This document shows, one piece after another, positions 48,961-64,000 of a DNA stretch of 64,000 bases. The stretch spans positions 558,001-622,000 of the forward strand of contig NZ_JAGSHX010000001.1 in assembly GCF_018138715.1 (NCBI RefSeq), given 5' to 3'. The first letter of the stretch is position 1; the number at the start of each line of letters is the position of its first letter. The notes under the pieces were generated by a model. That model did no database searches, was not told the DNA's origin, and saw only the letters and a program-made list of their open reading frames with translations. The position numbers were made by a program, and so were the translations under genes. This stretch comes from Streptomyces asiaticus (lineage in GTDB: Bacteria > Actinomycetota > Actinomycetes > Streptomycetales > Streptomycetaceae).

Positions 48961-49134
48961 CGACAGCGGCGCCCGCCCGCACGCACAGCGGGATGAAGCG
49001 GCCGTGCGGGTGCGAGGTGCGGCGGGGAAAGGACGGGGCGCAGGCGGGAAGCGCCTGCCGACGCGGAAGCGCGGAGGGGCGAACGGGCGGCGGCGAGCGG
49101 GCGACGACGGCGCCCGCGCCGGGAAAGCCGTAGG

Positions 49135-49296
49135 TCAGCGACAGCGCATGGCGCCGGTGCGGCCGAAGTCGACCACGCGCCGCCGGGTCAGCCGGGCGCC
49201 CGTGGCACGGCACACCGCCGGTCCGGCGGCCGACGGCCCGGATCCGTTGCGGTGGGTGCGCGGCCCGTGGGCCGCCACGAACGCTGTACGCGGCAT
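49135..49296 (-). CDS. Leader peptide of the ssu-type operon (RRRxVD...C family)
   Basis: The peptide ends TRRRVVDFGRTGAMRCR and a TGA. The R-R-R-x-V-D-[LF]-x-R...C pattern is that of the short actinobacterial leader peptides found before cysteine/sulfonate genes. ATG 49296 gives 53 residues and lies exactly 37 nt after the first T of a TTGGAC hexamer, as in the three other leaders here; a GTG at 49215 would give a 26-residue form. The 174 nt to the first structural gene could fold as an attenuator. Confidence 0.65.
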   Translation of the reverse strand: MPRTAFVAAHGPRTHRNGSGPSAAGPAVCRATGARLTRRRVVDFGRTGAMRCR

Positions 49297-49303
49297 GACC
49301 TCA

Positions 49304-49333
49304 GGATGCACGAGGCCGGAGTCGGCCGTCCAA
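49304..49333 (-). promoter_or_regulatory. Promoter for leader and ssu-type operon
   Basis: Minus strand TTGGAC (49333-49328), 18-bp spacer, GCATCC (49309-49304), then 7 nt to the ATG. The weak -10 is offset by the same spacing as in the other three leader promoters. Predicted transcription start is at or next to the start codon. Confidence 0.5.
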
Positions 49334-49393
49334 CGATGTTTTGCCATCAAAACCGATCGTGATTTCCGATCGATCGGTTGCTAGCCTGCGCAC

Positions 49394-50278
49394 ATGCGAA
49401 CGGTATTGGACATCGTGGCGTTGCGGAGCCTCATCGCCGTCGCCGACTACGGGGGCTTCCACCGCGCCGCCGGCGCACTCGCGCTCAGTCAGTCCACCGT
49501 CAGTCAGCACATCCGGCGGCTGGAGAAGTCCCTCGGACGCCCCGTCGTCGAACGTGACGGCAGGAAGACCCGGTTCACCCCCCATGGCACCCGACTGCTC
49601 GAAGAGGCCCAGCAGATCGTCGGCGCACACGACGCGGCCCTCCGCCGGCTCATGGGGGAGGACCCGGCCGACGCGGCGCCCGTCGTCATCGGCGCCACCG
49701 AGCACGGCGCCGACCAGCTCCTGCCCGTTCTGACCGCGGCCGTACGCGACACCCGGCCCGGCGCCGAGGTTCGGGTGCGCATCGACCGCTCGGCGCGGCT
49801 GACGGATGCCGTCGCGCGTGGTGAGCTCGACCTCGCCGTCTACGTCACCGAGGCGGCGTCCGCCCCGGGTACCCCGGTGGGTGAACTCCCCCTGCGCTGG
49901 TACGCCGCTCCCGGCTGGGAACCACCCGCCGCACCCGCGCCCCTGCCCCTGGTGGCCATCAGCGATCCCTGCGTGATCCGCCGCCGCGCCCTGACCGCAC
50001 TCGCCTCCCATCACACGGCAGCCACCGTGGTCGCCGAGGCCGGATACCTCGCGGGGGTGCTGGACGCGGCCCGCGCCGGGCTCGGCGCCGCCCTGCTCGC
50101 CGTCCCCGGCGGTCCGTACCCCGATGGCCTCGCGCCACTCCACGGCCTCCCGGCCGTTCCCCCGGTCCGCCTCAGCGCCCGGGCCCGCAGCGGCTGCGAC
50201 CCCTCCCTGACCGGAGCCACCATCGATGCGGTACGCGCCCTGCTGGGCTTCCGCGAAATGTCCCCGAGGGCTGTGTAA
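49394..50278 (+). CDS. LysR-family regulator of the sulfur island
   Basis: 294 residues. The helix-turn-helix is FHRAAGALALSQSTVSQHIR then RLEKSLGRPVVER, followed by a LysR effector domain (APVVIGATEHGADQLLPVL). ATG 49394; the promoter DNA before it is AT-rich with GATCGATCGG repeats at 49363-49378. It lies between two divergent/tandem organosulfur import operons, so it is a candidate regulator of both. Confidence 0.88.
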   Translation: MRTVLDIVALRSLIAVADYGGFHRAAGALALSQSTVSQHIRRLEKSLGRPVVERDGRKTRFTPHGTRLLEEAQQIVGAHDAALRRLMGEDPADAAPVVIGATEHGADQLLPVLTAAVRDTRPGAEVRVRIDRSARLTDAVARGELDLAVYVTEAASAPGTPVGELPLRWYAAPGWEPPAAPAPLPLVAISDPCVIRRRALTALASHHTAATVVAEAGYLAGVLDAARAGLGAALLAVPGGPYPDGLAPLHGLPAVPPVRLSARARSGCDPSLTGATIDAVRALLGFREMSPRAV

Positions 50279-50338
50279 CGCGAACATGGCAGCCGTACGA
50301 AGTCGTCATTGCCGCTTCCCGGAAATACGAACCCGTGC

Positions 50339-50368
50339 TTGACCCTTTCTTGACGTCGTGGGTAGCTT
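50339..50368 (+). promoter_or_regulatory. Promoter for leader and second sulfonate-type importer
   Basis: TTGACC (50339-50344), 18-bp spacer, TAGCTT (50363-50368), then 7 nt to ATG 50376. This is the clearest -10 of the four leader promoters and predicts a leaderless transcript. Confidence 0.65.
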
Positions 50369-50375
50369 CAGCGGC

Positions 50376-50450
50376 ATGCCGACCTCTCCGCGGTTCACGC
50401 AGCGGCGCCCTGTCGATCTGATGCGCCTCACCGTCGCACTGTGTAGCTGA
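50376..50450 (+). CDS. Leader peptide of the second importer (24 aa, RRxVD...C family)
   Basis: Peptide ends QRRPVDLMRLTVALCS and a TGA. It matches the R-R-x-V-D-L-x-R...C leader pattern. No ribosome-binding site precedes ATG 50376; the predicted transcription start coincides with the ATG. The downstream 104 nt contain two CCGTACGC repeats (around 50510-50535) able to pair, near the ribosome-binding site of the binding-protein gene. Confidence 0.75.
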   Translation: MPTSPRFTQRRPVDLMRLTVALCS

Positions 50451-50554
50451 AATCCAGTAGCGAACGCCCCTCACTCGCGACGAATTCCACCCCCGCGACA
50501 TCAGTTCACTTCCGTACGCTCCGATGCCGTACGCCTTGCACCCGGGGAATGTGT

Positions 50555-51616
50555 ATGCCCAGGCTTGCGCCGCCCATCCTGACCGCTCTGACCTGCGCCT
50601 CGTTGCTCGTCGGCTGCGCGGACAACACCACCTCGTCGACTACCGCCGACAGCAAGAACCTCGCCCACGTCAAGATTCCGGAGAAGGTGAAGGCGAAGAC
50701 GTCGATTACGGTCGGTGCGCCGGATACTCAGGTGGCGCTGAAGCTCTCGGGGCAGCTCGACAAGCTGCCCTTCAAGGTCAAGTGGGCCAATATCAGTGGC
50801 GGTCCGCAGTGCTCCGAGGCCTTCCGCGCGCATTCCCTCGATCTGTGCTCGGCGGCGGAGATCCCGTCGATACACGCCCACTGGACCGGTCTCGATACGA
50901 AGCTCGTGGCGACGGAATTCCGCAAGGACCCGTTGAAGCACCCCGTCTACGAACTCGGCATCGCTCCCGGGGCGGACGTCGACACCCTGGCGGACCTGCG
51001 CGGCAAGAAGATCGCCTACAGCCCGGGGCAGGCCCAGGGGGCGCTCGTGCTGCGGATCCTGGCCAAGGCGGGACTCTCGAAGGGCGATGTGCAACTGGTC
51101 GAGCTGCCCAGCACGGGGGATGTGTACCCGACCGCGCTCGGCAGCCGCCAAGTGGACGTCGCGCCCCTCGGAGGCGTCAACATCAAGCGCTATCCCGCGA
51201 AGTACGGCAAGGACGGCGGGAAGACCGTCCAGCACGGGCTGCGTGACGATCCCGCACATCTGTGGGCGGTGACCGACGCCGTGAGCGATCCGCAGAAGGC
51301 CGCCGCGATCAGGGAGTTCATCAGGTTCTGGGCGCGGTCGGAGGTCTGGGTCGACCGGCACCCGAAGCAGTGGATCGACGGCTACTACGTCAAGGACCAG
51401 GGCCTCACCCACGCGGACGGTGAGTACCTGGTGAAGCAGAACGGCCATCCGGACATCCCGGCCGACTGGACAGCGGCCATCGCGCGGCAGCAGAAGACCG
51501 TCGACCTGCTGGCGAAGGAGACGGGCCAGAAGAAGTTCGACGCGGGAATCCTCTTCGACCGCCGGTACGAGTCGGTCGCCGCCGATGCGGTCGCGGCAGC
51601 GGGGCGGCCGCGATGA
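50555..51616 (+). CDS. ABC substrate-binding lipoprotein, sulfonate/nitrate type
   Basis: 353 residues. Signal peptide with lipobox ASLLVGCADN, then an SsuA-like fold (ITVGAPDTQVALKLSGQLDK; LADLRGKKIAYSPGQAQGAL; GGVNIKRYPAKY). ATG 50555 is chosen because GGGGA ends 6 nt upstream; ATG 50549 would be too close. Overlaps the permease gene by 4 nt. Confidence 0.9.
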   Translation: MPRLAPPILTALTCASLLVGCADNTTSSTTADSKNLAHVKIPEKVKAKTSITVGAPDTQVALKLSGQLDKLPFKVKWANISGGPQCSEAFRAHSLDLCSAAEIPSIHAHWTGLDTKLVATEFRKDPLKHPVYELGIAPGADVDTLADLRGKKIAYSPGQAQGALVLRILAKAGLSKGDVQLVELPSTGDVYPTALGSRQVDVAPLGGVNIKRYPAKYGKDGGKTVQHGLRDDPAHLWAVTDAVSDPQKAAAIREFIRFWARSEVWVDRHPKQWIDGYYVKDQGLTHADGEYLVKQNGHPDIPADWTAAIARQQKTVDLLAKETGQKKFDAGILFDRRYESVAADAVAAAGRPR

Positions 51617-52479
51617 GCACGGACCTCGGGCGCGAGCGGCTGTCGCTCGCCAGGACCACGAAGGCGGCCCCGGCCGCGGGGAACGCCGGGCGCCGCGTCG
51701 CGCGCCGGCGCCTCGGTCCCGGTCGGCCCATCCCGTACGGCCGGGCCCTCGGCCCCCTCCTGCTGCTCGCGGTCTGGTCGGCCGGCTCGGCCACCGGCCT
51801 CATCGACGCGCGCGATCTGTCCGCCCCCTGGACGGTGGTGACCACGGCGGGTGACCTCATCGCGGACGGCAGGCTCCAGTCCAATGTGCGGACCTCCACC
51901 GAGCGAGCCCTGTCCGGTCTGGTGTACGGGACGGCCGCCGGGCTCGTGCTGGCGCTCATCGCGGGGCTCAGCAGACTCGGCGAGGGGGTGATCGACGGCC
52001 CGGTGCAGATCAAGCGGGGCATTCCCTCGCTCGCGCTCATCCCGCTGCTGATCCTGTGGTTCGGCATCGGGGAGTCCATGAAGGTCATCACGATCGCCCT
52101 CGGCGCCTTCGTGCCGGTCTACATCCACACCCACAACGGACTGCGCACCATCGACAGCCGGTACGTCGAGCTCGCCGAGACGCTGGGGCTGAGCCGCCCG
52201 CGCTTCCTGCTGCACATCGTGCTGCCGGGCGCACTGCCCGGCTTCCTCCTCGGGATGCGTTTCGCCGTGACCGCCTCATGGCTGGCGCTGGCCGTCGTCG
52301 AACAGGTCAACGCCACCAGCGGGATCGGCTACATGATGGGGCTCGCGCGGACGTACGGGCAGACCGACATCATCATCGTCGGTCTCGTCGTCTACGGACT
52401 CCTCGGGCTGCTCTCCGACGGACTGGTACGGCTCGTGGAGAGGAAGGTCCTGTCATGGCGACGCACACTGGCGGGCTGA
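51613..52479 (+). CDS. ABC transporter permease, SsuC/TauC type
   Basis: 288 residues, about six membrane segments. The EAA loop reads ELAETLGLSRPRFLLHIVLP; WFGIGESMKVITIALGAFVP and VEQVNATSGIGYMMGLARTY are family hallmarks. It is a clear paralogue of the permease at 46381. Overlaps the ATPase gene by 25 nt. Confidence 0.92.
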   Translation: MSTDLGRERLSLARTTKAAPAAGNAGRRVARRRLGPGRPIPYGRALGPLLLLAVWSAGSATGLIDARDLSAPWTVVTTAGDLIADGRLQSNVRTSTERALSGLVYGTAAGLVLALIAGLSRLGEGVIDGPVQIKRGIPSLALIPLLILWFGIGESMKVITIALGAFVPVYIHTHNGLRTIDSRYVELAETLGLSRPRFLLHIVLPGALPGFLLGMRFAVTASWLALAVVEQVNATSGIGYMMGLARTYGQTDIIIVGLVVYGLLGLLSDGLVRLVERKVLSWRRTLAG

Positions 52480-53234
52480 CGGCCACCGCCCCGGAGGCCG
52501 CAACGGCCGTCCGCATCGAGGGGCTCGTACGGGCCTTCGGCGAGCGCAAGGTGCTGGACGGGCTCGATCTGAGCCTGCGCGCCGGGGAGTTCGTGGCCAT
52601 GCTCGGCCGCAGTGGCTCCGGCAAGAGCACCGTCCTGCGGGCGCTCGCCGGAGTCGACCACGACGCCGGTGGCGAAGGCGTACTGAGCGCGCCCGCCCAT
52701 GTGTCGGTCGTCTTCCAGGACGCCAGGCTGCTGCCCTGGAAACGGGTGCTGGCCAATGTGGCGCTGGGACTCACGGGCGGGGACGCCGAGGAGCGGGCGC
52801 GCACCGCGCTCGCCGAGGTGGGACTGGCCGGGCGGGAGGACGCCTGGCCGGTGGAGCTGTCGGGCGGTGAACAGCAGCGGGTCTCACTCGCCCGCTCCCT
52901 GGTGCGCGAGCCCGAACTGCTGCTCGCGGACGAGCCGTTCGGCGCGCTCGACGCGCTCACCAGGACCCGTATGCACGCTCTTCTGGCCCGCCTGTACGAG
53001 CGGCACCGTCCCGCCGTGCTGCTGGTCACGCATGATGTCGACGAGGCCATCGCGCTCGCCGACCGGATCGTGGTCCTGGACGGGGGCCGGATCGCCGCCG
53101 ACCTCGCCGTGGAGGTTCCGGCGCCGCGCCGGCCCGCCGGTGCCGAGTACGCCGCGCTGCGCGAGCGACTGCTCGCCCGGCTGGGCGTGGACGCGGCCAC
53201 CGGGCGGGCGGACGACCTTCCCGAGAGCCGCTAA
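52455..53234 (+). CDS. ABC transporter ATPase, SsuB/TauB type
   Basis: 259 residues. Walker A GRSGSGKSTVL, Q-loop FQDARLLPWKRV, signature LSGGEQQRVSLARSL, Walker B LLLADEPFGALD and VTHDVDEAI. ATG 52455 lies inside the end of the permease gene, and no other start gives the N-terminal strand VRIEGLVRAFG. Completes the second sulfonate-type importer. Confidence 0.93.
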   Translation: MATHTGGLTATAPEAATAVRIEGLVRAFGERKVLDGLDLSLRAGEFVAMLGRSGSGKSTVLRALAGVDHDAGGEGVLSAPAHVSVVFQDARLLPWKRVLANVALGLTGGDAEERARTALAEVGLAGREDAWPVELSGGEQQRVSLARSLVREPELLLADEPFGALDALTRTRMHALLARLYERHRPAVLLVTHDVDEAIALADRIVVLDGGRIAADLAVEVPAPRRPAGAEYAALRERLLARLGVDAATGRADDLPESR

Positions 53235-53285
53235 GCGCCCCGCGACTGACCTTGTCGACATCCCGATACCTTTCAGGAGTTGCCG

Positions 53286-54530
53286 GTGAGCCCGACAGCC
53301 ACCCGACCGTTCTTGTTCGCACTCGGCGCCGCGTCGCTGCTGGCCGCCTCGGCCATGGGCCCGACAGCCGTCGCCGCGCCCGCCGAGCCCCGTCCATCGG
53401 TGGCGCTCGACTGGTACGACACCACGGCACAGACGATCGCGGCCGCCGGGGCGCCGACCCAGGTGACCAACAGCCGCACATGGGCGGTGAGCTGGCTGGC
53501 CGCGGCACGGGCCACCCGCCAGGTGCCCACGGGCGTCGACCGGGGCGACTACCAGGACGCGGCGCTGGCCTCGGCCGTGCACAGCTCCCTGGTCGCCCTC
53601 GCGCCGACGCGCACCGAGCAGCTGGACGCCGCGTTCCACCGCACCCTCGACGGGATCCCGGACGGCCCGGCCGAGGACCGGGGCGTGGCGGCGGGCGAAC
53701 GCGAGGCCCGGTCCGTCCTCGCGTCCCGGGAGGGCGACGGCCTGGACCCGGCGTCGGTCGACACCCCGTTCACCGTGCCCCCGGCCGCCCCCGGCGTCTG
53801 GCAGCCGACGCCGTCCGCGTACGCCCCCGCCACGCAGTACGGCAACCGCGTCGCGCGGCCGTTCGTGCTGTCGGCCCCCGACCAGTTCCGGCTCGGGCCG
53901 CCGCCCGCGCTGGACTCCCGACGGTACCGGGCGGACCTGGCCGAAGTGCGTGCCTACGGCGCGGCGGACAGCACCCGGCGCACCGCCCACCAGACGCAGA
54001 CGGCGAATTTCTGGTACGGCTCCTCGCTGACCCTCTACACCGGGCCGCTGCGGGTCGCGCTGTCCCGCTCCGCCGGGTCGGTGGCGGAGCGGGCGAAGCT
54101 GGTGGCGATGTTCCACATCGCGTCGGTGGACACGCAGATCGCGACCTCCGACTCCAAGTACGCGTATCTGCGCTGGCGTCCGGTCACCGCCATCCGCACC
54201 GGCGCCATCGACCCCGACCCCGACTGGACGCCGCTGCACAACACCCCGGCGCACCCGGACTATCCGAGCGGCCACACCACCTACGCGGGCGCGGCGGAGG
54301 GGATACTGTCCGCGCTCACCGGGCCGCGCACCGCGCCGTTCGAGCTGACCAGCCCCACCGCGCCGGGGGTCACCCGGACGTACACGGACTGGCACCGGCT
54401 GACGGCCGAGAACGTCGACGCGCGGGTCCTCTCGGGCATCCACACCCGCTCGGCGGACGAGGCCGGAGTCACCCTCGGCGAGAAGGTGGCCGCGTACGTG
54501 CTGCGCGCCTCCGGCCACCTCCTGCGCTAG
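53286..54530 (+). CDS. Secreted PAP2/vanadium-dependent haloperoxidase-like protein
   Basis: 414 residues. A Sec signal peptide (LFALGAASLLAASAMGPTAV, cleavage after AVAA) is followed by an all-helical domain with the vanadate/phosphate pocket motifs: KYAYLRWRPVTAIR, PDYPSGHTTYAG and, as third motif, LSGIHTRSADEAG. The third motif keeps the His and Asp/Glu of the vanadium branch. GTG 53286 is served by AGGAG 6 nt upstream; TTG 53280 would be too close. It follows the importer by 51 nt and may act outside the cell as phosphatase, sulfatase-like hydrolase or haloperoxidase. Confidence 0.85.
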   Translation: MSPTATRPFLFALGAASLLAASAMGPTAVAAPAEPRPSVALDWYDTTAQTIAAAGAPTQVTNSRTWAVSWLAAARATRQVPTGVDRGDYQDAALASAVHSSLVALAPTRTEQLDAAFHRTLDGIPDGPAEDRGVAAGEREARSVLASREGDGLDPASVDTPFTVPPAAPGVWQPTPSAYAPATQYGNRVARPFVLSAPDQFRLGPPPALDSRRYRADLAEVRAYGAADSTRRTAHQTQTANFWYGSSLTLYTGPLRVALSRSAGSVAERAKLVAMFHIASVDTQIATSDSKYAYLRWRPVTAIRTGAIDPDPDWTPLHNTPAHPDYPSGHTTYAGAAEGILSALTGPRTAPFELTSPTAPGVTRTYTDWHRLTAENVDARVLSGIHTRSADEAGVTLGEKVAAYVLRASGHLLR

Positions 54531-54538
54531 TCCGGGGC

Positions 54539-55585
54539 TCAGTCGCGCGAGGCCGGGCGGCGGCGGGTGGCCGGGTCGGTGAGCGACGGGGGCTGGTAGC
54601 CCTCGTCGGCCGGGCTGATCGTGGTGCCGGGCGGCACGATCTCGTCGATCCGGTCGAGCACGTCCCGCGAGAGACGGACGTCGACCGCGCCGAGCTGGCT
54701 CACCAGGTGCTCCTGGGTGCGCGGGCCGATGATCACCGTCGACACGGCCGGGTGCTCCAGCACGAACGCCAGCGACAGGTGGATCAGCGACAGCCCCGCC
54801 TCGTCGGCCAGCTCGGCGAGTTGCTCCGCCGCCTCGCGCTTGCGCTGGTTGGCCGCCAGCTCCGGATCGTGCCGGTGCGGCTGGCGCTCCAGACGGCTGG
54901 ACACGACGTGCGTGGTGTCCCCCTTGCGGTAGCGACCGGACAGCCAGCCACCGGCCAGCGGGCTCCACGGCAGAACACCAAGACCGTACCGCTCGGCGAC
55001 GGGCAGCACCGCCCGCTCCGCCGCCCGGGCCAGGATGGAGTACGGGGGCTGCTCGGTGACGGGGCGCTGACGGCGCAGGCGCTCGGCGATCCACTGGCCC
55101 TCGACGATCTGGTGCGGTTCGAAGGTCGTGGTGCCGAAGTAGCGGATCTTGCCCTGCCGTACGAGGTCGTCGAGTGCGCCGAGCGTCTCCTCGAAGTCGG
55201 TGGCGGGGTCGGGCCGGTGGACCTGGTAGAGGTCGATGTGGTCGGTGCCCAGGCGGCGCAGGCTGTCCTCGACGGCCCGGTGGATCCAGCGGCGTGAGTT
55301 GCCCTGGTGGTTGGGGTTGTCACCGATCTGGCCGTGGAACTTGGTCGCGAGGAACACGTCGTCCCGGCGGCTGTCCGCGAGGGCCTTGCCGACGATCTCC
55401 TCGTTCTCGCCCTGGGAGTACACATCGGCCGTGTCGATGACGTTGATGCCCGCGTCGAGGGCCTGGTGAATGATCTTGACGGCGTCGTCGTGGTCACGGT
55501 TGGCCCAGGCGCCGAAGTTCATCGCGCCGAGCGTCAGGGGGCTGACCTTCACGCCGGTACGGCCGAGGGTGCGGTACGTGGTCAT
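54539..55585 (-). CDS. Aldo-keto reductase
   Basis: 348 residues, NADPH-dependent (beta/alpha)8 barrel. NVIDTADVYSQGENEEIVGK holds Asp and Tyr of the tetrad, FLATKFHG the Lys and YQVHRPDP the His. The C-terminal cofactor part is TVIIGPRTQEHL. ATG 55585 is preferred; 18 more codons upstream are Lys/Met-rich and poorly conserved. Last gene of the Met-type sulfur operon, 56 nt after the flavoprotein gene, possibly reducing an aldehyde released by the monooxygenases. Confidence 0.92.
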   Translation of the reverse strand: MTTYRTLGRTGVKVSPLTLGAMNFGAWANRDHDDAVKIIHQALDAGINVIDTADVYSQGENEEIVGKALADSRRDDVFLATKFHGQIGDNPNHQGNSRRWIHRAVEDSLRRLGTDHIDLYQVHRPDPATDFEETLGALDDLVRQGKIRYFGTTTFEPHQIVEGQWIAERLRRQRPVTEQPPYSILARAAERAVLPVAERYGLGVLPWSPLAGGWLSGRYRKGDTTHVVSSRLERQPHRHDPELAANQRKREAAEQLAELADEAGLSLIHLSLAFVLEHPAVSTVIIGPRTQEHLVSQLGAVDVRLSRDVLDRIDEIVPPGTTISPADEGYQPPSLTDPATRRRPASRD

Positions 55586-55641
55586 GTCTTCGGTGTCTTC
55601 CTTCTCTTTGCGCATCGTTTTGGACATCGTCCTGGACACCG

Positions 55642-56856
55642 TCAGAAGAACCCTGTCAGCGGCGGCGGTTCGCCGTTGAGGAGGTAGTCACCCACCACAC
55701 GTGCCTTGTGGGCGATCGGATTGTGGCTGACCAGGGTGCGGGCGTTGCGCCAGTGGCGGTCGAGGTTGAACTCGCGCCGGGTGGCCGAGGCCCCGCCCAC
55801 GTCGTACAGCCGCTCCGCCGTCCGCAGGGCCGCCTGTGCGGCCACCACCTGCGCCTGCGCCACCTCGGTGGCCGCCTCGGCGAGCGCCGGTTCGCCGCCC
55901 GCGACGCCGTCCTCGCCGCGGGGGCCGGCTAGGGCACGGTCGATGGCGGCGGCCGCGCGCACCACGGTGGCCTCGGCCCCGTACCCGAGCGCCGCCATCT
56001 CGCCCACGGTGTGCTGCACGAACGGGTCCTGGACCGCGTGGTCGACGCCGCTGTGCCGTACCGCGCGGGCCCGGTCGCGGGCGTAGCCGATCGCGTCGCG
56101 CACCGCGTTCTTGGCGATGCCGGTCTCCACGGCGGCGAGGTAGAGCTGGTGGAACGCGCCGAGATGGGTCCGGCGCACCCCCACGGTCTCGTCCACGGCG
56201 ACCTCGTGCGGGTACACCGCCACGTCGTCCAGCTCCGTGGTGCCGCTCGCCGTCATGCGCTGACCCATGCCGTCCCAGTCGTCGATCAGCCGGAGCCCGG
56301 GGCGGCCGTGCGGGAGCACCACGCAAACCCGCTGGTCGAGGTGGTTCTTCGCGGTGATGACCACCCAGTCGGCGAACAGGCTGCCGGTGCTGTAGTACTT
56401 CGTGCCGCTCAGCCGGTAGCGGTCGCCGTCGGGTACCAGCGCGGTGTGGATGTCGCCGGGGTGCTCGGCGGCGGTCTCCCCGGTGGCGTTGCCGAAGAGC
56501 TCGCCCGCCGAGGCCGCGGCGAACCACCGTTCGCGGTCCTCCTGCCCACCGTCGCTGATGAGCTTCTCGAGGAAACCGAAGTGCGGCCGGAGCGCCTGTG
56601 CCACATTGGAGTCCGCCTCCGCGAGGTCGATGACGGTCCGGAAGAGGTCCACGAGGCTCGCCCCCGGGCCGCCGTACGCCACTGGGACCCGCAGCGATCC
56701 GACGGCACTCGCCCGCACCGCGTCCATCGACCCGTACGGCAGTTCCCGCTCGGCCTCGCGGCGCGCCGTGTCGACGGAGAGGGAGGCGGCCAACTCCGGT
56801 ACGCGGGCCAGTACCTCCCGTACCGTGACGGTCCGCCGGGCCGTGGTGGTGTTCAT
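55642..56856 (-). CDS. Acyl-CoA-dehydrogenase-fold flavin monooxygenase (SfnB/DszC-like)
   Basis: 404 residues. N-terminal helices, then ELFGNATGETAAEHPGDIHT, YRLSGTKYYSTGSLFADWVV, and C-terminal ERLYDVGGASATRREFNLDR with HWRNARTLVSHNP, which is diagnostic for the DszC/SfnB/XiaF-like monooxygenase branch, not for true acyl-CoA dehydrogenases. It would insert oxygen into an organosulfur compound with FMNH2. Overlaps the LLM gene upstream by 4 nt. Confidence 0.9.
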   Translation of the reverse strand: MNTTTARRTVTVREVLARVPELAASLSVDTARREAERELPYGSMDAVRASAVGSLRVPVAYGGPGASLVDLFRTVIDLAEADSNVAQALRPHFGFLEKLISDGGQEDRERWFAAASAGELFGNATGETAAEHPGDIHTALVPDGDRYRLSGTKYYSTGSLFADWVVITAKNHLDQRVCVVLPHGRPGLRLIDDWDGMGQRMTASGTTELDDVAVYPHEVAVDETVGVRRTHLGAFHQLYLAAVETGIAKNAVRDAIGYARDRARAVRHSGVDHAVQDPFVQHTVGEMAALGYGAEATVVRAAAAIDRALAGPRGEDGVAGGEPALAEAATEVAQAQVVAAQAALRTAERLYDVGGASATRREFNLDRHWRNARTLVSHNPIAHKARVVGDYLLNGEPPPLTGFF

Positions 56857-58199
56857 CGGGCCGTGGCCCCTTTCTCTCCGGAAGGCTCGTATGACGACGG
56901 CGGTACGGGGAGCCCCAGGTGGTCGCGGAGGGTGGTGCCCGTGTAGCCGTGGCGGAACACGCCGCGTTCCCGCAGGATCGGCACGACGTGGTCGACGAAG
57001 GTGTCCAGGCCGTCGGGCAGCGCGTCGGGCAGCAGGGTGAAACCGTCCACCAGACCGGCCGACCACCAGCCGGTGATGTCGTCCGCGATCCGTTCGGGGG
57101 TGCCGACGACCGACCGGTGGCCGCCGATGGTGCGCGCGGCGAGCCCGGCCAGGGACAGCCCCTCACGGCGGGCGATCTCGGCATGGGTGCGGAAGAACCC
57201 GGTGGGCAGCCGGTCCGGTGGCGGTCCCGACAACTGGGCCTCGGTCAAAGGGGCTTCGGGGTCGGTGGTGGCGGGGTCGAGGCCGAGCGTACGGGCCACC
57301 CGGGCGAGCTGCTGCGCGTCCTGGTGTACGCCCGCCTCCAGCGCGGCGAAGCGCGCGCGGGCCTCCGCCTCGGTGCTGCCGATCACCGGGGTGAGACCGG
57401 GCAGCAGCCGGATGCCGGACACCTCACGTCCGTACCGCCGCGCCTGTCCGGCGAGCCGGGCGCGGTAGTCGCGCGCCGCCTCGCGGTCGAGCAGCGGGGT
57501 GTAGACGGCCTCGGCGAAGCGTCCCGCGAGGGCCACGCCCGGTGGCGAGGCCCCGGCCTGCACCGTCACGGGGCGGCCCTGCGGGGAGCGCGGCACATTG
57601 AGCGGCCCCGCGACGTCGAAGAACTCGCCGGTGTGGTCGGCTGCGTGAATCCGGCCGGGGTCGGCGAAGCGCGCGCCGTCGGTGTCCGCGATGAGCGCGC
57701 CGTCCTCCCAGGAATCCCACAGCCGGTGCACCAGGCCGATGAACTCCTCCGCCCTGCGGTAGCGGGTGTCGGGGTCGAGCACGGTGCCGAGACCGAAGTT
57801 CCGCGCCGCCCCGGGGAAGAAGGTGGCGACCGCGTTCCATCCGGCGCGCCCCCGCGAGGCGTGGTCGATCGAGAGCACCCGGCGGGCGAGGTTGTAGGGC
57901 TCGTTGAAGGTGGTGGACCCGGTGAAGACGACCCCGATGCGCTCGGTGGCGGCGGCGAGGTAGGTCAGCAGCATCGAGGGTTCCAGGGCCTGCCCGGGGC
58001 CCCGGCCGATGTCGCCGTGGAGGGCGGGGATATCGGCGAGGAACACCCCGTCGAGGGCGCCGCGCTCGGCGGTACGGGCCACCCGCAGATGGTGGTCCGG
58101 ATCGACATAGGCGTCCGGGGCCCGACCGGGCAGGGCCCAGGCCCCGGGGTGGTTTCCGGCGCCGGTGATGTTCACCAGCAGACTGAGTCGGCGTGTCAT
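56853..58199 (-). CDS. LLM-class flavin-dependent monooxygenase (NtaA/SnaA/DszA family), copy 2
   Basis: 448 residues, luciferase-like barrel of the longer NtaA/DszA group: DGVFLADIPAL, NEPYNLARRVLSIDHASRGR, GWNAVATFFPGAARNFGLG, and FFDVAGPLNVPRSPQGRPV. DszA-type enzymes cleave C-S bonds of sulfones with FMNH2. Forms a pair with the next LLM gene; 4-nt overlaps on both sides. Confidence 0.92.
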   Translation of the reverse strand: MTRRLSLLVNITGAGNHPGAWALPGRAPDAYVDPDHHLRVARTAERGALDGVFLADIPALHGDIGRGPGQALEPSMLLTYLAAATERIGVVFTGSTTFNEPYNLARRVLSIDHASRGRAGWNAVATFFPGAARNFGLGTVLDPDTRYRRAEEFIGLVHRLWDSWEDGALIADTDGARFADPGRIHAADHTGEFFDVAGPLNVPRSPQGRPVTVQAGASPPGVALAGRFAEAVYTPLLDREAARDYRARLAGQARRYGREVSGIRLLPGLTPVIGSTEAEARARFAALEAGVHQDAQQLARVARTLGLDPATTDPEAPLTEAQLSGPPPDRLPTGFFRTHAEIARREGLSLAGLAARTIGGHRSVVGTPERIADDITGWWSAGLVDGFTLLPDALPDGLDTFVDHVVPILRERGVFRHGYTGTTLRDHLGLPVPPSSYEPSGEKGATAR

Positions 58200-59560
58200 C
58201 GGACCAGCACCTCCGCCGCGTCGGGTGCGTACCGGGCGACCGGGGGCCGGGCCAGGCCGAAGTGGTCGCGCAGCGTGGCGCCCGCGTAGTCGTCCCGGAA
58301 CAGCCCCCGGTGGCGCAGCTCCGGCACCACGTGCTCGGCGAAGGCCGCGAGGCCGCTGGGGAGCACGTCGGGCATCAGGTTGAAGCCGTCGGCCGCGCCC
58401 GCGGTGAACCACTCCTCGATGGTGTCGGCGATGTCGGCCGGCCGGCCGGCGACGACGCGGTGGCCGAGTCCGCCGCCGAGCCGCCGGATCAGCTGCCGGG
58501 CGGTGAGCCGCTCGCGGCGGGCGAGGTCGGTGGTGACGGTGAAGAAGGTCTGTAGCCCCTGGACGTCCTCGGCGGGGCCGATGAGGTCCCACGGCAGCTC
58601 CGCGTCCGGGGCGAGGGCGTCGGCGTCGATGCCGAGGAGGGCGGCCAGCCGGTCAAGACCGTAGCGGAGCGGAATGAGGTCCTGGAGGCCGTTCAGCCGC
58701 TCCAGCGCCTCGTCGCGGGTGGCGGCGACCACCGTCGACAGCCCGGGCAGCACCACGATCCCGTCGGGGTCGCGGCCGAGCGCGGCGGCGCGGGACTTGA
58801 TGGCCCGGTAGTACGCCTTGCCCTCGTCCAGGGTCTGGGCGGCGCTGAAGACGGCCTCGGCGTGCGCGGCGGCGAGTTCGATGCCGTCGGGCGAGCCGCC
58901 CGCCTGGACGAGGACGGGGCGCCCCTGCGGCGATCGCGGGGTGTTCAGCGGCCCTTGGACGCGGAAGAACTCGCCCTGGTGGTCGATGGCGTGGATACGG
59001 GCCGGATCGGCGAACACACCGCGCGCGGAGTCCCCGATGAGCGCGTCGTCGTCCCAGCTGTCCCACAACGCGCCCACGACGCCGACGAACTCGGCGGCGC
59101 GCCGGTAGCGGTCACGGTGGGCGGGCGCCTGGTCGAGACCGAAGTTGCGGGCGGCGGCGGGACCGGCCGTGGTCACCGCGTTGAACCCGGCGCGGCCCCG
59201 GCTGAGGTGGTCCAGCGCCGCGAACCGGCGGGCGATGTTGTAGGGCTCGTTGTAGCTGGTGGAGGCGGTGGCGATCAGGCCGATACGGCTGGTGTGGGCA
59301 GCGATCCCGGCCAGGATCACGGTGGGTTCCAGCGCGTATTCGGGGCGGTGGGCGATATCGGGGGTGAGGACGGAGGTGTCGGCGAGGAAGACCGCGTCGA
59401 GCTTCGCGGCCTCGGCGATCCGGGCGGTGGCGATGTAGTGGTCGAGGGAGAAGGCGGCGCGCGGGTCGCCGTCGGGGGCGCGCCACGCACCCGCGAAGAT
59501 CCCGGACTGGAAGATGTTGACGTTGAGGTGCAGGTGTCGCCTGCCGGGCGAGAGGGTCAT
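58196..59560 (-). CDS. LLM-class flavin-dependent monooxygenase (NtaA/SnaA/DszA family), copy 1
   Basis: 454 residues. DAVFLADTSVL, NEPYNIARRFAALDHLSRGR, GFNAVTTAGPAAARNFGLDQ and FFRVQGPLNTPRSPQGRPV align with its downstream neighbour and mark the same group. Together they suggest stepwise oxidation of one class of imported sulfur or amine compounds. ATG 59560 overlaps the MetQ-like gene by 4 nt. Confidence 0.92.
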   Translation of the reverse strand: MTLSPGRRHLHLNVNIFQSGIFAGAWRAPDGDPRAAFSLDHYIATARIAEAAKLDAVFLADTSVLTPDIAHRPEYALEPTVILAGIAAHTSRIGLIATASTSYNEPYNIARRFAALDHLSRGRAGFNAVTTAGPAAARNFGLDQAPAHRDRYRRAAEFVGVVGALWDSWDDDALIGDSARGVFADPARIHAIDHQGEFFRVQGPLNTPRSPQGRPVLVQAGGSPDGIELAAAHAEAVFSAAQTLDEGKAYYRAIKSRAAALGRDPDGIVVLPGLSTVVAATRDEALERLNGLQDLIPLRYGLDRLAALLGIDADALAPDAELPWDLIGPAEDVQGLQTFFTVTTDLARRERLTARQLIRRLGGGLGHRVVAGRPADIADTIEEWFTAGAADGFNLMPDVLPSGLAAFAEHVVPELRHRGLFRDDYAGATLRDHFGLARPPVARYAPDAAEVLVR

Positions 59561-60462
59561 GGGGCGGCTCGCTGACGCTGGTCGGCGGGGATCTTGGCGG
59601 GCTGGGTCTCCACATCGAGGCTGTTCTTGATGAACCGGGCCACCCGCGGGTCGGCGAACGCGGCCTTGAGCCGGGTGATGGCGGGGTCGTCGGCGTAGGC
59701 GTCGCCGACGACGAGCTGGATGGCGAAGCGTTCGTCGGCCGGGGGCAGCAGGATGCGCTGCTTGATCGGGATCTTGGCGACCCGGAACTTGTAGGCGTAG
59801 TTGATGGCGGCGTCGACGTCCGGGAGGGAGCGGGCGATGGCGTCCAGGGACACCTCGTGCCAGTGGAAGTCGTGTGGGTTCTCGGCGATGTCGCCCAGCT
59901 GTGCGGTGAGCGGGTCCACATCCTTCTTGAGCTTGATGAGCCCGACCTTCTGGAGGGTCAGCAGCGCCTGGGTCTGGTTCGCCGGGTCGTTGGGCAGGGT
60001 GATCCGCGCGCCGTACGGCAGTTCCCGCACACTGCCGTACTTCTGCGAGTAGAGGGCGAACGCCTGGGTGAAGACGGGCTGGACGGCCTTCGCCTCGTAG
60101 CCCTCGTTGGCCACGATGACCTTGAGCCACTCGGCGTGCTGGGTGATGTTCGCGGCGAGCTTGCCGTCCGCGGTCGAGCCGTTGACCTGGTTGGCGTCGT
60201 TGACGGGGTAGGGCTCGACCCTGATGCCGCGGTCCTGGTCGACCTTGTCGGCGATGTACTTCACGATGGCGCTCTGCGGAATGCTCCCCTGGTTGTAGCC
60301 GACCTTCAGGGTCTTCCCCAGGGGCGGGTGGTCCTCGCCGCCCACTCGCGCGGCGACCAGCGAGCCGACGGCGAGGGCGACGGCGCTGAGCGCGGCCGTG
60401 ATGGCGATGCGGCGGGGCAGTCTGGACTTCAGCTCGAAGCCGTGGTCATGGACGAAAGGCAT
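59557..60462 (-). CDS. metQ: MetQ/NlpA-type substrate-binding protein without a lipobox
   Basis: 301 residues. A single N-terminal hydrophobic segment (IAITAALSAVALAVGSLVAA) has no Cys, so the protein is membrane-anchored, not lipidated, unlike standard MetQ. The body is NlpA-like: TLKVGYNQGSIPQ, RITLPNDPANQTQALLTLQK, NPHDFHWHEVSLDAIARSLP, DVDAAINYAYKF. NlpA/MetQ proteins bind methionine or related thioethers; here the LLM neighbours suggest an organosulfur ligand. Confidence 0.88.
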   Translation of the reverse strand: MPFVHDHGFELKSRLPRRIAITAALSAVALAVGSLVAARVGGEDHPPLGKTLKVGYNQGSIPQSAIVKYIADKVDQDRGIRVEPYPVNDANQVNGSTADGKLAANITQHAEWLKVIVANEGYEAKAVQPVFTQAFALYSQKYGSVRELPYGARITLPNDPANQTQALLTLQKVGLIKLKKDVDPLTAQLGDIAENPHDFHWHEVSLDAIARSLPDVDAAINYAYKFRVAKIPIKQRILLPPADERFAIQLVVGDAYADDPAITRLKAAFADPRVARFIKNSLDVETQPAKIPADQRQRAAP

Positions 60463-60533
60463 GGGTGTTTCCCCGGTGGGATGGAGGGGTTCTGGGCGCG
60501 GCGGGCTCGGTGGCCTCGGCAACCTCGGCGACC

Positions 60534-61193
60534 TCAGTGGGCGAGGCGGCGCACGATGCGGTCGCCGGTGAACTGGATCACCTGCACCATGACGACGAGC
60601 GTGACGATCGTGGCGGTCATGACCGTCGTGTCGAAGCGCTCGTAGCCGTAGCTGATGGTCAGATAGCCGATGCCACCCGCGCCGATGGTCCCGGCGATGG
60701 CGGAGAATTCCAGCATGCCGATGATCGCGATGGTCAGGCTTCCCGCGAGCGCGGGCAGCGCCTCCGCCAGCTGCACGGACACGATCACCTGAAGGCGTGA
60801 GCCGGCGGCGGCGCGCCCCGCTTCGGTGGCCTCGCGGGGCACTTCCCGCAGGGCCGTTTCCACCAGCCGCGCGAAGTAGGGGATGCCCGCGAGCGACATC
60901 GGCACGATCGCGGCGGACACCCCGATGGTCGTGCCCGCTACGTACCGGGTGAACGGAATGATCGCGGCCATCAGGATCAGAAACGGCAGCGAACGGCCCA
61001 GGTTGACCACCCAGCTCAGCGTGGCCCGCAGCGCCCGGTGCGGAAACAGCGCGCCGGGCGAGGCGTTGTGGAGCACCACGCCCACCGGGGTGCCCACGGC
61101 GACGACGATGAGCATGACGGCGGCGACCATCTGGAGGGTCTGCCCGATCGCGGGGAAGAGCAGTGGCCAGAGCCGGTCGAGCTCGGTGCTCAT
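60534..61193 (-). CDS. metI: MetI-type ABC permease
   Basis: 219 residues, five membrane segments. The LGRSLPFLILMAAIIPFTRY block and the EAA loop EATEAGRAAAGSRLQVIVSV followed by GAGGIGYLTISYGYERFDT are typical MetI features. ATG 61193 overlaps the ATPase gene by 4 nt. Confidence 0.93.
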   Translation of the reverse strand: MSTELDRLWPLLFPAIGQTLQMVAAVMLIVVAVGTPVGVVLHNASPGALFPHRALRATLSWVVNLGRSLPFLILMAAIIPFTRYVAGTTIGVSAAIVPMSLAGIPYFARLVETALREVPREATEAGRAAAGSRLQVIVSVQLAEALPALAGSLTIAIIGMLEFSAIAGTIGAGGIGYLTISYGYERFDTTVMTATIVTLVVMVQVIQFTGDRIVRRLAH

Positions 61194-62257
61194 ACGACCG
61201 CCCCCTCGACCGTCTCCGCGGCCGCCTCGGGGGCTGGTTCGGAGGCCGCCGGTTCTTCGGCCGGTCCACTGTGGCCTGGGGGCAGCGGTTCGGCGTGGAT
61301 GCCCCAGCCGTCCAGGGCAGCGGTCAGCTCGTCCGCCCGGTCGTGGCCGACCGCGACGGTCGCACGGCCCGCGGCCCGCCCGGCGATCTCCTCCACCGTC
61401 GCGGACAGCAGATGGACATCGAGCCCGTGGTCCGCACCGAGCCGCGTCAGCCAGTCCGTGGGCACCGAGCGCCCCTGGTAGGTGAGCCGCCATGTGCCGA
61501 GCCCCTGCCGGTCCAAGGAGACCGGCCGGTCGGGAAGGAGCGCGTTGCCCAGCGCGGAGTGCGGGTCGGCCACCAGCTGGTGGACGGGCCCCGACTCGAT
61601 GACGCGCCCCTCGCGCAGCAGGGCGGCGGTGTCCGCCACCTCGCGGACCACTTCCATCTCGTGGGTGATCAGGAGGATGGCCAGATCCAGGTCGGTGCGC
61701 AGCTCGCGCAGCAGGGCGAGGACGGACCGGGTGGCGGCCGGGTCGAGACCGGAGGTGGCCTCGTCGGACAGCAGCACCTTGGGCCGCAGGGCCAACGCGC
61801 GTGCGATACCCACGCGTTGGCGCTGGCCACCGGAGAGCTGGGCCGGGTAGTCGTCGGCCCGGTCCGTGAGGCCGACCCGCTCCAGCAGTTCGGCGACGCG
61901 ACGCTTCTCCTCCCGCGCGGTCACGCCGAGATAGCGCAGTGGCATCGCGACGTTCTGCGCCGCCGTACGCCGGCGCAGCAGATTGGCCGACTGGAAGACC
62001 GTTCCGATGGCCCGCCGGGCATGGCGGAGGTCACGCTCCGGGAGGTCCGTCACATCGGTTCCAGCCACCCATACCCGCCCGGACGTGGGGCGTTCGAGCA
62101 AATTGACGCAGCGGGCCAGAGTGCTCTTCCCCGCGCCACTGGGGCCGACGACGGCGCCGACGGTGCCCTGCGCGATGTTCAGGTCGACGTCATGGAGCAC
62201 CGGCCGCGCACGGGTACCGGTGCCGAAGGTCTTGTGCAGTTTCTCTACACGGATCAC
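61190..62257 (-). CDS. metN: MetN-type ABC ATPase with NIL domain
   Basis: 355 residues. Walker A GPSGAGKSTLA, Q-loop FQSANLLRRRT, signature LSGGQRQRVGIARAL, Walker B VLLSDEATSGLD, His in ITHEMEVVRE; C-terminal NIL (ligand-sensing) domain from LGTWRLTYQGRSVPTDWLTR on, ending in an Ala/Glu-rich tail. In MetN the NIL domain gives feedback inhibition by methionine. Start GTG 62257 has AGGAG 8-9 nt upstream. First structural gene of the operon, 92 nt after its leader peptide. Confidence 0.92.
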   Translation of the reverse strand: MIRVEKLHKTFGTGTRARPVLHDVDLNIAQGTVGAVVGPSGAGKSTLARCVNLLERPTSGRVWVAGTDVTDLPERDLRHARRAIGTVFQSANLLRRRTAAQNVAMPLRYLGVTAREEKRRVAELLERVGLTDRADDYPAQLSGGQRQRVGIARALALRPKVLLSDEATSGLDPAATRSVLALLRELRTDLDLAILLITHEMEVVREVADTAALLREGRVIESGPVHQLVADPHSALGNALLPDRPVSLDRQGLGTWRLTYQGRSVPTDWLTRLGADHGLDVHLLSATVEEIAGRAAGRATVAVGHDRADELTAALDGWGIHAEPLPPGHSGPAEEPAASEPAPEAAAETVEGAVV

Positions 62258-62349
62258 CGTGTGTACTCCTCGACGCTCTGGGGAGGGAGCGGGCGGGCGC
62301 GCCAGAAGAAAGAGAGAAGACGACGGGCCGGCCCGGAGCGGGAATGAGG

Positions 62350-62430
62350 TCAGTGAGAGAAACAGGCGGCACTGGTGATCACCATGTGATCGACCGTGCG
62401 CCGGCGCGTGCAGAAGAGGGTCCGCGACAT
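62350..62430 (-). CDS. Leader peptide of the Met-type operon (26 aa)
   Basis: MSRTLF then CTRRRTVDHMVITSAACFSH and TGA. It fits the R-R-R-x-V-D...C leader pattern with two Cys. ATG 62430 has no ribosome-binding site and lies 37 nt after the first T of TTGACC (62467). The palindrome TGGTGATCACCA (62373-62384 area) overlaps its 3' half. The AT-rich run downstream could contribute to an attenuator before metN. Confidence 0.72.
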   Translation of the reverse strand: MSRTLFCTRRRTVDHMVITSAACFSH

Positions 62431-62437
62431 GGGATGG

Positions 62438-62467
62438 GATGCTCACATTCCCGTTGGCCCAGGTCAA
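62438..62467 (-). promoter_or_regulatory. Promoter for leader and Met-type operon
   Basis: Minus strand TTGACC (62467-62462), 18-bp spacer, AGCATC (62443-62438), 7 nt, then ATG. Same geometry as the other leader promoters. Confidence 0.55.
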
Positions 62468-62536
62468 CAGCGGACCGCATGGTGAGATGCGCGGTGTGCC
62501 CGGCGGCCGTCCACCGTTCCGCATGGTGGTCGCTGC

Positions 62537-62566
62537 TTGACCAGTACACGAGCGCCGGTGTTGGGT
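62537..62566 (+). promoter_or_regulatory. Promoter for the plus-strand leader at the right end
   Basis: TTGACC (62537-62542), 18-bp spacer, TTGGGT (62561-62566), 7 nt, then ATG 62574. Only 70 nt separate it from the minus-strand leader promoter, so the two are divergent and could share a regulator site. Confidence 0.55.
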
Positions 62567-62573
62567 GGCGCCC

Positions 62574-62645
62574 ATGGCCTCCGCGTTTCTGGTGCATCGC
62601 CACCACGTCGACCTCGGTCGAGTGGTGAGCGCGCAGTGTTGTTGA
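62574..62645 (+). CDS. Leader peptide with terminal Cys-Cys (23 aa)
   Basis: Peptide ends VHRHHVDLGRVVSAQCC and TGA, the closest of the four to the family consensus (R-H-H-V-D-L-G-R-V-x-S-A-x-C). The two Cys codons are the last sense codons, ideal for ribosome stalling when Cys-tRNA is short. It precedes the FAD-oxidase relic and the aminotransferase gene. Confidence 0.78.
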   Translation: MASAFLVHRHHVDLGRVVSAQCC

Positions 62646-62808
62646 GGCATTGACGGCTGCCCGCCGAGGCGCCTTCTCCCATCTGTTTCTCGTGTGTGAT
62701 CCGTCTGCCCGTACGGGGCCGTGACCCCCGTGCGCCGTGGTGCATGCCGGTCCGTCAACTTGCCCGCGTCGGCGCCGAAGAGCCCACGCGCCCCATGAGG
62801 AAACCACC

Positions 62809-63377
62809 GTGACCGACACGTTCCCGCGGGAGCTGCGCCAAGCCCTCGCCGAGACCTCCGCACCACCGCTCGACGGCGCGGACGTCCTTCCGTACCTCGA
62901 CGACCGCTCCGGAGCGGCCGGGGCCCGGGCGATCAACGCCGATCTCAACACGGCGCTTCGGCCGGTCACGGCCTGTACTACGCGCCCGACCCGGCCAGCC
63001 ACGCCATCTCCACCATCGGCGGGAACATCGCCACCAACGCGGGCGGACTGCGCTCCGCCAAGTACGGCGTCACCCGTGACTCCGTGCTGGCGCTCGATGT
63101 GGTGCTCGCCGACGGAACCGCCCTGCACACCGGCCACCGCAGCGTCAAAGGGGTCACCGGCCTGGACCTGACCGCCCTGTTCATCGGTTCCGAGGGCACC
63201 CTGGGAGTGATCGTCGGCGCCACCGTGCGGCTCCGTCCGCTCCCGGCGGCGACCGCCACCGTCCTGCTGCCGGTGCGGACCGACGGACACGCCGCCGCGG
63301 CCGGACTCGCACTCCAGCGCGGCATCAAGGCCGTCTTCGACCCACTCGGCATCCTCAACCCCGGCAAGGCCCTCTGA
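62809..63377 (+). pseudogene. Wrecked FAD-linked oxidase (GlcD/VAO family)
   Basis: From GTG 62809 (AGGAAA upstream) the N-terminus reads TFPRELRQALAETSAPPLDG; about 70 residues of the FAD-binding domain are then missing, and INADLNTALRP follows. A frameshift near 62970 moves to another frame that reads GLYYAPDPASHAISTIGGNI, SAKYGVTRDSVLALDVVLAD and GSEGTLGVIVGATVRLRPLP. Then roughly 180 residues of the cap domain are gone and only GIKAVFDPLGILNPGKAL closes the gene. The intact relative at 39823 shows what is missing. At least two in-frame-sized deletions and one frameshift. Confidence 0.88.
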
Positions 63378-63448
63378 AAGCCCGCCCCCCGCCGACCGGC
63401 GCTCCGGCCCCCACCGAAACACTCACCTGTCTTTTGGAGACACACCTC

Positions 63449-64000
63449 ATGGCCCTCTCCCGCCGCGGTGCCGATACCACCGCCCTGGGCGGCTTCGGCG
63501 ATCCGCCCCCGACCGGAGTCCCCGGCTTCCTCCCGCTCACCAGCGGCACCCCCGCCGACGGGGCGCTTCCCGTCAAGGAGCTGGCCGAGGCCGCGGCCGG
63601 GGTGTTCGGCGGTCCGTCCGCGGCCACCGCGTTCCAGTACTCCGGCGTGGAGGGGACACCGGAGCTGCGCGAGTGGATCGGCCGCCACGAAGGGGTCGCC
63701 GCGGAGCGGGTGCTCGTCACCAACGGGGCACTCCACTCGCTCTCGCTGGTCTTCGACGCGCTGCTCGACCCCGGCGACCTGGTCGCCGTCGAGGACCCGG
63801 TCTACCCGCTCGCGCTGCGCGTCCTCGGCCGGTCCCATGTCACGTATCTGCCGGTCCCCACCGGGCCGGACGGCCTGGACGTCGACGCCCTCGCGGCGGC
63901 GCTCGAAGGCGGCGCCCGCCCCAAGGTCCTCTACACCGTGCCCGACTTCCACAACCCCACCGGTGCCACGCTTCCCGCCCCCGCCCGCGTCCGGCTCGTC
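63449..64000 (+). CDS. PLP-dependent aminotransferase (class I/II, MocR/2-aminoadipate type), C-terminus cut by window edge
   Basis: 184 residues seen. LPLTSGTPADGALPVKELAE, AFQYSGVEGTPELREWIGRH, VTNGALHSLSLVFDALLDPG, DLVAVEDPVYPLALRVLG and LYTVPDFHNPTGATL give the N-terminal half of a fold-type I aminotransferase; the PLP Lys lies beyond the edge. GGAGA is 8-9 nt before ATG 63449. There is no N-terminal GntR domain. It is downstream of the Cys-Cys leader, so it is probably part of the sulfur-responsive set. Confidence 0.9.
   Translation, partial: MALSRRGADTTALGGFGDPPPTGVPGFLPLTSGTPADGALPVKELAEAAAGVFGGPSAATAFQYSGVEGTPELREWIGRHEGVAAERVLVTNGALHSLSLVFDALLDPGDLVAVEDPVYPLALRVLGRSHVTYLPVPTGPDGLDVDALAAALEGGARPKVLYTVPDFHNPTGATLPAPARVRLV

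Follow-up and report, generated by a model that had tools for sequence, protein, structure and literature searches.

Analysis of a 64,000-nucleotide stretch of Streptomyces asiaticus DNA (the window; G000:C1:558001-622000 of an 11.9 Mb genome) centred on four very short open reading frames (ORFs), here called pep1 to pep4, each with the features of a leader peptide gene. All four encode the same 14-residue core, [RH]xx[VI]D-x8-C, and in all four the cysteine that closes the core is specified by TGT. We think it likely that these ORFs are leaderless cysteine-responsive attenuators, in which the ribosome would wait at this one wobble-read UGU codon, probably with the aid of the nascent peptide. 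A preliminary description of this DNA had listed the four frames and their C-terminal residues, all of which exist as it gave them; the fixed spacing between the VD pair and the cysteine and the uniform use of TGT are points absent from it.

A 14-residue core with a fixed UGU codon

The core motif has exactly four matches in the six frames of the window, and these are pep1 to pep4. Every match has a stop no more than nine codons on and, upstream, a TTG[AG][AC] box at leaderless distance from a start codon. In 60 dinucleotide shuffles the bare motif occurred 1.8 times on average, falling to 0.15 when the nearby stop was included and to 0 when stop and promoter box were both included.

The choice of codon at position 14 holds far beyond the window. 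Among 262 distinct leader contexts, from loci that range in GC content from 0.55 to 0.78 and carry about 46 genus labels (a count made by hand), position 14 is cysteine in 259, encoded by UGU in 257 and by UGC in two. Both UGC cases fall in a polycysteine leader (L289, L291); the three rows without cysteine have AGT (L011), GGG (L198) and GTT (L292, an out-of-class match that is likely due to chance). Most loci are best matches to a hidden Markov model (HMM), a choice that favours the core residues and Cys14, while the HMM is blind to codons. Eleven loci in one set of 155 were unparsed and stand outside the counts (L044, L067 and L116, which lie near contig ends and not at the expected place; L009, L015, L019 and L021-L025, weak or lacking the core), as do 1 of 60 and 3 of 24 loci of two other sets. 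Counted apart from the 262, pep1 and pep3 have UGU too, and the same is true of leaders found near orthologs of the flanking genes.

The rule is specific to this position. In a subset of 249 contexts, cysteines elsewhere in the same leaders are encoded by 265 UGC and 65 UGU codons, those at position 7 by 90 UGC and 3 UGU; the long ORFs of these loci use 421 UGC and 90 UGU. Asp5, likewise encoded by a two-fold box, is GAC in 205 cases and GAT in 57. Related sequences are counted side by side in these tallies, and a p-value computed on the 249 contexts overstates their independence. From core to stop there is one cysteine in 86 of the 262 contexts, two in 81 and three in 77. The window's own genome has two tRNA-Cys genes, both GCA (from a scan of 67 tRNA loci, minus five long ones of 84-87 bases); as a GCA tRNA reads UGU by wobble, the sensor codon should be wobble-read. 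The fixed UGU at the last core cysteine is suggestive of a common gauge of cysteine that the ribosome would read.

At most other positions of the core it is the amino acid that persists. Among 109 unique cores of the genus, D5 is present in all 109, R8 in 108, R1 in 106, L6 in 105 and H3 in 101. At the majority of conserved sites the residue stays the same though its codon does not: R1 is encoded by CGG, CGC, AGG, CGA, CGT and AGA, with AGG accounting for 18 percent of cases as against 3 in the background, and synonymous changes at D5 occur in five of the seven groups of orthologs or near-orthologs compared. The persistence of R1, D5, L6 and R8 while their codons vary indicates selection at the level of the peptide. 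The ratio of nonsynonymous to synonymous polymorphism (pN/pS) of the core is 0.16-0.31 in the seven groups and 0.54 over all paralogs pooled. Codon 14 has no synonymous change in any of the seven. A second exception to codon variability is Ser11, which is AGC in 90 percent of cores versus 21 percent in nearby ORFs.

The kind of element is already known, since NCBIfam curates peptides with this core as putative leaders, cysteine leaders of the mycobacterial type among them. Three of its models found matches: NF042934 cis_reg_atten (putative leader peptide), Ms5788A and Ms4527A. NF042934 has the same core as the window leaders, but it is a protein model and holds no codon information. Its hallmark, a VD core with a cysteine nine residues after the Asp and near the C-terminus, is present in all four; its cut-off of 27 bits is reached by none, pep2 scoring 18.6 and pep4 16.5, and pep1 and pep3 matched none of the NCBIfam leader models. 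The four are thus relatives sharing the NF042934 core, not members by cut-off. Eight other leaders of the same genome exceed that cut-off, and L008, heading a rhodanese gene, exceeds the cut-off of Ms5788A (46.7 versus 45 bits). Loci matching Ms5788A or Ms4527A have the core RRAVDL or RRHIDL with Cys at position 14. NF042934 matches occur in all 61 genomes of the genus searched, in several copies per genome, and in 183 of 246 genomes of the class (in 151 with a score above the cut-off), covering 76 of 103 genera; outside the class, matches were obtained in three genomes, all below cut-off.

The genes behind these leaders were identified by Pfam in one example per group, other loci being assigned to each group by sequence motif or BLAST. 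They comprise ThiS-type plus PALP (cysO/cysM-like), CDO_I plus rhodanese, two luciferase-like monooxygenase groups, sulfatase, sulfite/nitrite reductase, flavin reductase, TauD, rhodanese and ABC parts; one example, L135, had no Pfam match in its downstream gene. The names cysO, cysM, SsuD and sirA used here are labels that we presume to fit the Pfam families of these single examples. The preliminary description had placed cysteine-type leaders, kin to mycobacterial ones, ahead of sulfur operons. The score of L008 and the retention of leaders with their operons (see below) bear this out. Its polycysteine label does not apply, each of the four peptides having one or two cysteines and no run: two separate in pep1, one in pep2, two separate in pep3 and a single CC pair in pep4.

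Promoter geometry, mechanism and alternatives

The distance from the -35 box to the ATG is exactly 37 nt in all four leaders, as first described. TTGACC-N31-ATG occurs exactly three times in the window (pep2, pep3 and pep4), whereas 30 shuffles average 0.07; in pep1 TTGGAC takes the place of TTGACC, at unchanged distance. The finer division proposed at the outset, an 18 bp spacer followed by 7 nt, suits pep2, with a TAnnnT-like -10 (TAGCTT), and weakly pep4 (TTGGGT), but not pep1 or pep3, for which 19/6 (CATCCT) and 17/8 (GAGCAT) are better splits. The statement that none of the leaders has a Shine-Dalgarno (SD) sequence needs qualifying for pep4, as a weak GGGTGG lies upstream of it. Where other leaders of the genus show a clear TTGAC box, it stands 35-38 nt from the start, and some groups, for example cysO, have no clear -35. 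According to a study of S. lividans, leaderless genes of that organism carry TTGACn, with spacers that average 16.5 and -10 hexamers located some 6.3 nt ahead of the start (PMC8079986). The spacing in the window is therefore beyond chance but ordinary for leaderless genes, and is best taken as a mark of leaderless promoters with no sulfur code. On sequence evidence, these boxes are largely kept in orthologs of the four leaders.

In the mechanism that we favour, transcription would start at or near the ATG, allowing the ribosome to initiate at once. The decisive codon would be UGU at core position 14, usually no more than seven codons from the stop. A shortage of charged tRNA-Cys would make the ribosome wait at this codon and cover the RNA just behind the leader, turning the operon on; otherwise it would read on and leave. 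Being decoded by wobble, UGU should be the slower codon, and UGC cysteines elsewhere should detain the ribosome less. When UGU occupies the A site, R1, D5, L6 and R8 would be some 12 to 5 residues back from the last joined residue. This places them in the upper tunnel, where arrest peptides make contacts, so the chain may set the pause, and probably adds to it. The output would vary by operon: an anti-SD would be masked in at least one family, and in other operons probably a C-rich Rho-type site.

It is quite conceivable, if short of probable, that this is one case of a sensor cassette used throughout the Actinomycetes, in which a conserved nascent chain makes the ribosome test a single wobble-read UGU at fixed distance. 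Such a cassette would be in part an arrest peptide and in part a hungry-codon attenuator, and would be reused before many unrelated sulfur operons with different outputs. The regulatory element would then carry its message in one synonymous codon, the choice between UGU and UGC in a tiny ORF mattering for regulation in a whole bacterial class; as the peptide is conserved, help from the nascent chain would be directly testable by a few point changes. The core also gives a search rule for sulfur-acquisition operons in actinomycetes ([RH]xx[VI]D-x8-C, Cys as UGU, nearby stop); pep1 and pep3 are missed by the curated models.

The polycysteine leaders of mycobacteria were reportedly found to be cysteine-responsive by Canestrari and colleagues in 2020. 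These short ORFs (Ms5788A, Ms4527A) are leaderless, as ours are predicted to be, and likewise lie upstream of cysteine and sulfur operons; they differ from the present leaders, which have one or two cysteines and no run, and among which SD sequestration is not general. Msmeg_5788 is a cysA2 gene with a leaderless Cys short ORF (PMC4633059, Shell 2015), and the mycobacterial relatives are reported to depend on cysteine supply (PMC9031893). A plain codon-counting attenuator on this published model would respond to tRNA-Cys charging only, with no role for the peptide sequence. Polycysteine relatives (L161-L163, L165, L166) that share the core and the position of Cys14 agree with it. We nevertheless find it rather doubtful, as it leaves unexplained the retention of R1, D5, L6 and R8 across paralogs and genera despite codon change, including CGN/AGG exchange at R1, and the constant distance of Cys14 from VD.

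Peptide-level selection at fixed distances would also be expected of a strict arrest peptide, one that, as in TnaC, senses free cysteine or some other metabolite bound by its chain inside the exit tunnel and not tRNA charging; induction by plenty would suit the CDO_I-family gene that such a leader precedes. This is an unlikely account, the preference for UGU over UGC being unexpected if the amino acid alone matters, and most targets looking like acquisition genes. In the tna operon a stall near the leader stop masks a Rho site and the nascent chain matters; TnaC differs in that its ligand is free tryptophan and its targets are catabolic. The leu leader, with its run of rare Leu codons, resembles the present leaders in having a less used synonymous codon at its control site; here it is one codon at one position.

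Less likely again is that UGU and the core form an RNA element (a hairpin or a protein site) whose translation is incidental. The near-invariance of UGU and the AGC bias at Ser11 would suit such an element, but codons vary at R1, L6, R8 and, in the five groups noted, D5. A hairpin with UGU in its loop seemed persuasive on inspection of several families but was rejected, as synonymous shuffles gave the same enclosing-pair probability (0.350 versus 0.336, p 0.82, 268 contexts). Finally, purifying selection on the peptide would also fit a small protein acting in trans and not in cis, a very improbable reading given several copies per genome, of which those examined mostly head sulfur-type operons and move with them, N-termini unrelated between families, and the UGU rule.

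Cysteine leader peptides before cys operons of actinobacteria were proposed by Seliverstov in 2005 (PMC1262725), and cysteine leaders of actinobacteria again in 2015 (PMC4633059). In the accessible text those of 2005 come from Mycobacterium, P. acnes and B. longum, share with ours a lack of conserved terminators, and have the runs of Cys codons that are missing here; no Streptomyces cysteine leader was found listed there, though S. coelicolor and S. avermitilis were among the genomes. A limited literature search found no study in print of a Streptomyces cysteine leader, a fixed core or a UGU rule. Relative to known leaders, the cysteine fixed at position 14, the UGU rule and the keeping of R1, D5, L6 and R8 as amino acids were not found in the searchable literature.

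Candidate output steps

The bases that directly follow UGU in the thiol-dioxygenase family show complementarity to the downstream SD, with a predicted duplex of -21.3 kcal/mol versus -13.1 for mismatched pairs, the best of 15. Here leader WRRVHMDLVRYAGCVCRPSC, whose 3′ end is complementary to the SD of a CDO_I-family dioxygenase, precedes that gene and a rhodanese partner (L048:1653-2210 and 29 more motif-assigned loci). Masking at codon 14 raises predicted SD access from 0.23 to 0.39 in this family and from 0.54 to 0.68 in sirA. In the same duplex test, for which some of the gene starts used are uncertain, pep3 ranks second of 15, pep2 9th, pep4 11th and pep1 13th. On these predictions, masking of the SD by the leader 3′ end is clear for the thiol-dioxygenase family and possible for pep3, with none seen for pep1, pep2 or pep4. 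SD sequestration was consequently dropped as a general output.

Where no anti-SD is seen, Rho-dependent control is the likeliest output. This proposal draws on spacers that are C-rich on average, on the finding of no terminator-like site and on an earlier suggestion for mycobacteria. The C-G skew of the spacer after the leader stop is 0.19-0.31 by family, versus a mean of 0.11 (sd 0.19) in 48 other 5′ regions, a background that includes a stretch holding some leaders of the island; within the window it is 0.23 for pep1, 0.33 for pep2, 0.40 for pep3 and 0.10 for pep4. For mycobacterial cys operons, Rho with poly-Y motifs has been suggested in a prediction that its own authors call weak (PMC1262725). 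Rfam at its gathering score gave no match in the window.

Several observations weigh against the wobble-codon attenuator. A simple pattern scan found no terminator-like site in 48800-50700 or 62000-63000, and the pep4 spacer is, at the value just given, not C-rich. Masking at UGU leaves the predicted SD access of cysO, LLM1 and SsuD unraised. Of 14 mismatched families, as many as 13 form duplexes as strong as or stronger than the true pair for cysO, 10 for SsuD, 4 for LLM1 and 3 for sirA; the same count for the window leaders is 12 for pep1, 8 for pep2, 10 for pep4 and 1 for pep3. The spacer behind pep2 is not conserved among orthologs. At the level of the core, L6 and R8 are missing from pep3, the Asp5 codon is free of synonymous change in two of the seven groups (CDO and SsuD), and position 14 has its two UGC exceptions and three non-Cys rows. 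Lastly, the CDO_I-family dioxygenase may degrade cysteine (cysteine dioxygenase is the name given to its nearest relatives of solved structure), which would make it an odd gene to find under a starvation switch; either its substrate is another thiol, or the switch works the opposite way.

The four loci, their relatives and further leaders

The pep1 ORF (49135-49296, minus strand; core RRVVDFGRTGAMRC at 49182-49141, sensor TGT at 49143-49141) has an uncertain start, GTG starts also being present in frame. Its promoter is predicted from sequence at 49303-49333 (minus; -35 TTGGAC at 49333-49328, -10 CATCCT at 49308-49303). The operon behind it (44631-48945, minus) encodes, by Pfam, an alpha/beta hydrolase, a rhodanese, an ABC permease, an ABC ATPase and an NMT1-type binding protein. 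Of four loci around the first gene of this operon in relatives, three have the leader and one, at 56 percent identity, has none; in relatives L415-L417 TTGGAC is likewise 37 nt ahead of the ATG. Between the divergent pep1 and pep2 units lies a LysR-type regulator (49394-50278, plus), through which transcription control may be layered on the leaders.

The pep2 ORF, MPTSPRFTQRRPVDLMRLTVALCS (50376-50450, plus; core 50403-50444, sensor TGT 50442-50444), follows a putative promoter at 50339-50368 (TTGACC 50339-50344, TAGCTT 50363-50368) and precedes genes for an NMT1-type binding protein, a permease and an ABC ATPase (50549-53234, plus; Pfam). A leader with core and UGU is found in all 11 loci, the window's own included, at 65-100 percent identity around the binding-protein gene. 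Much of the promoter, the core and UGU-[AC]GC-UGA are kept, whereas the spacer behind the leader varies in both length and sequence. Most loci retain the CTTG of the -35; the full box is not present everywhere (TTGCCC in L359, TTGAAG in L360). In L360 and L361 the spacer contains repeats resembling the leader 3′ end (GGTGTG-AGCTGACC-like), possibly a local duplication of the control region.

The pep3 ORF, MSRTLFCTRRRTVDHMVITSAACFSH (62350-62430, minus; core 62403-62362, sensor TGT 62364-62362), has its candidate promoter at 62439-62467 (minus; TTGACC 62467-62462, GAGCAT 62444-62439), and its operon (56853-62257, minus) encodes an ABC ATPase with a NIL domain, a permease, an NlpA lipoprotein and two luciferase-like monooxygenases (Pfam). 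It is kept in three of three close loci (the window and relatives L386 and L387), and both promoter boxes are retained in the relatives although much of the intervening spacer differs. The same two relatives keep pep4, MASAFLVHRHHVDLGRVVSAQCC (62574-62645, plus; core 62598-62639, sensor TGT 62637-62639), whose putative promoter lies at 62537-62566 (TTGACC 62537-62542, TTGGGT 62561-62566).

Behind pep4 (62810-64000, plus) an apparently broken oxidase-like frame is followed by an aminotransferase that extends beyond the window end and was identified in L027:5434-6624. The first frame (62810-63430, plus) resembles, by eye, a broken FAD-oxidase-type gene; 62737-63171 has no Pfam match. A deletion in this region is likely, the gap between the flanking genes being 1.2 kb here versus about 2.0 kb in two relatives. 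No leader was found in the flanks of two aminotransferase loci (L419, L420), which would be expected were the oxidase region in between longer there.

Loss of the peptides beside conserved flanking genes was thus not observed among close orthologs. More distant paralogs are without leaders: none was found at 19 binding-protein loci with 42-47 percent identity (L366-L384), nor at 27 loci of distant relatives of the pep3 ATPase (L388-L414, roughly 50 percent identity), which indicates that the leader is restricted to the close ortholog group. In the two closest relatives the pep1 unit is 1.4-2.3 Mb from the pep3/pep4 unit; the leader therefore travels with its operon and not with the island.

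The preliminary description counted four leaders in the island. All four are present, yet they are not the full set, as at least four more Cys-core leaders (C1:632564, 637997, 639058 and 640982) and one without Cys14 (632194) lie just outside the window. The genes around these leaders encode luciferase-like monooxygenases, an oligopeptide-type ABC transporter, TauD and a PALP-family enzyme. The leader without Cys14 (L009, G000:C1:632194) and another at C6:343765 (L011) are leader-like frames of the form LTRRLHIDLLRI...; they have similar starts (MFRTD, MPRTD) and GGTGGAG directly ahead of the ATG, and may be decayed leaders or sensors of something else.

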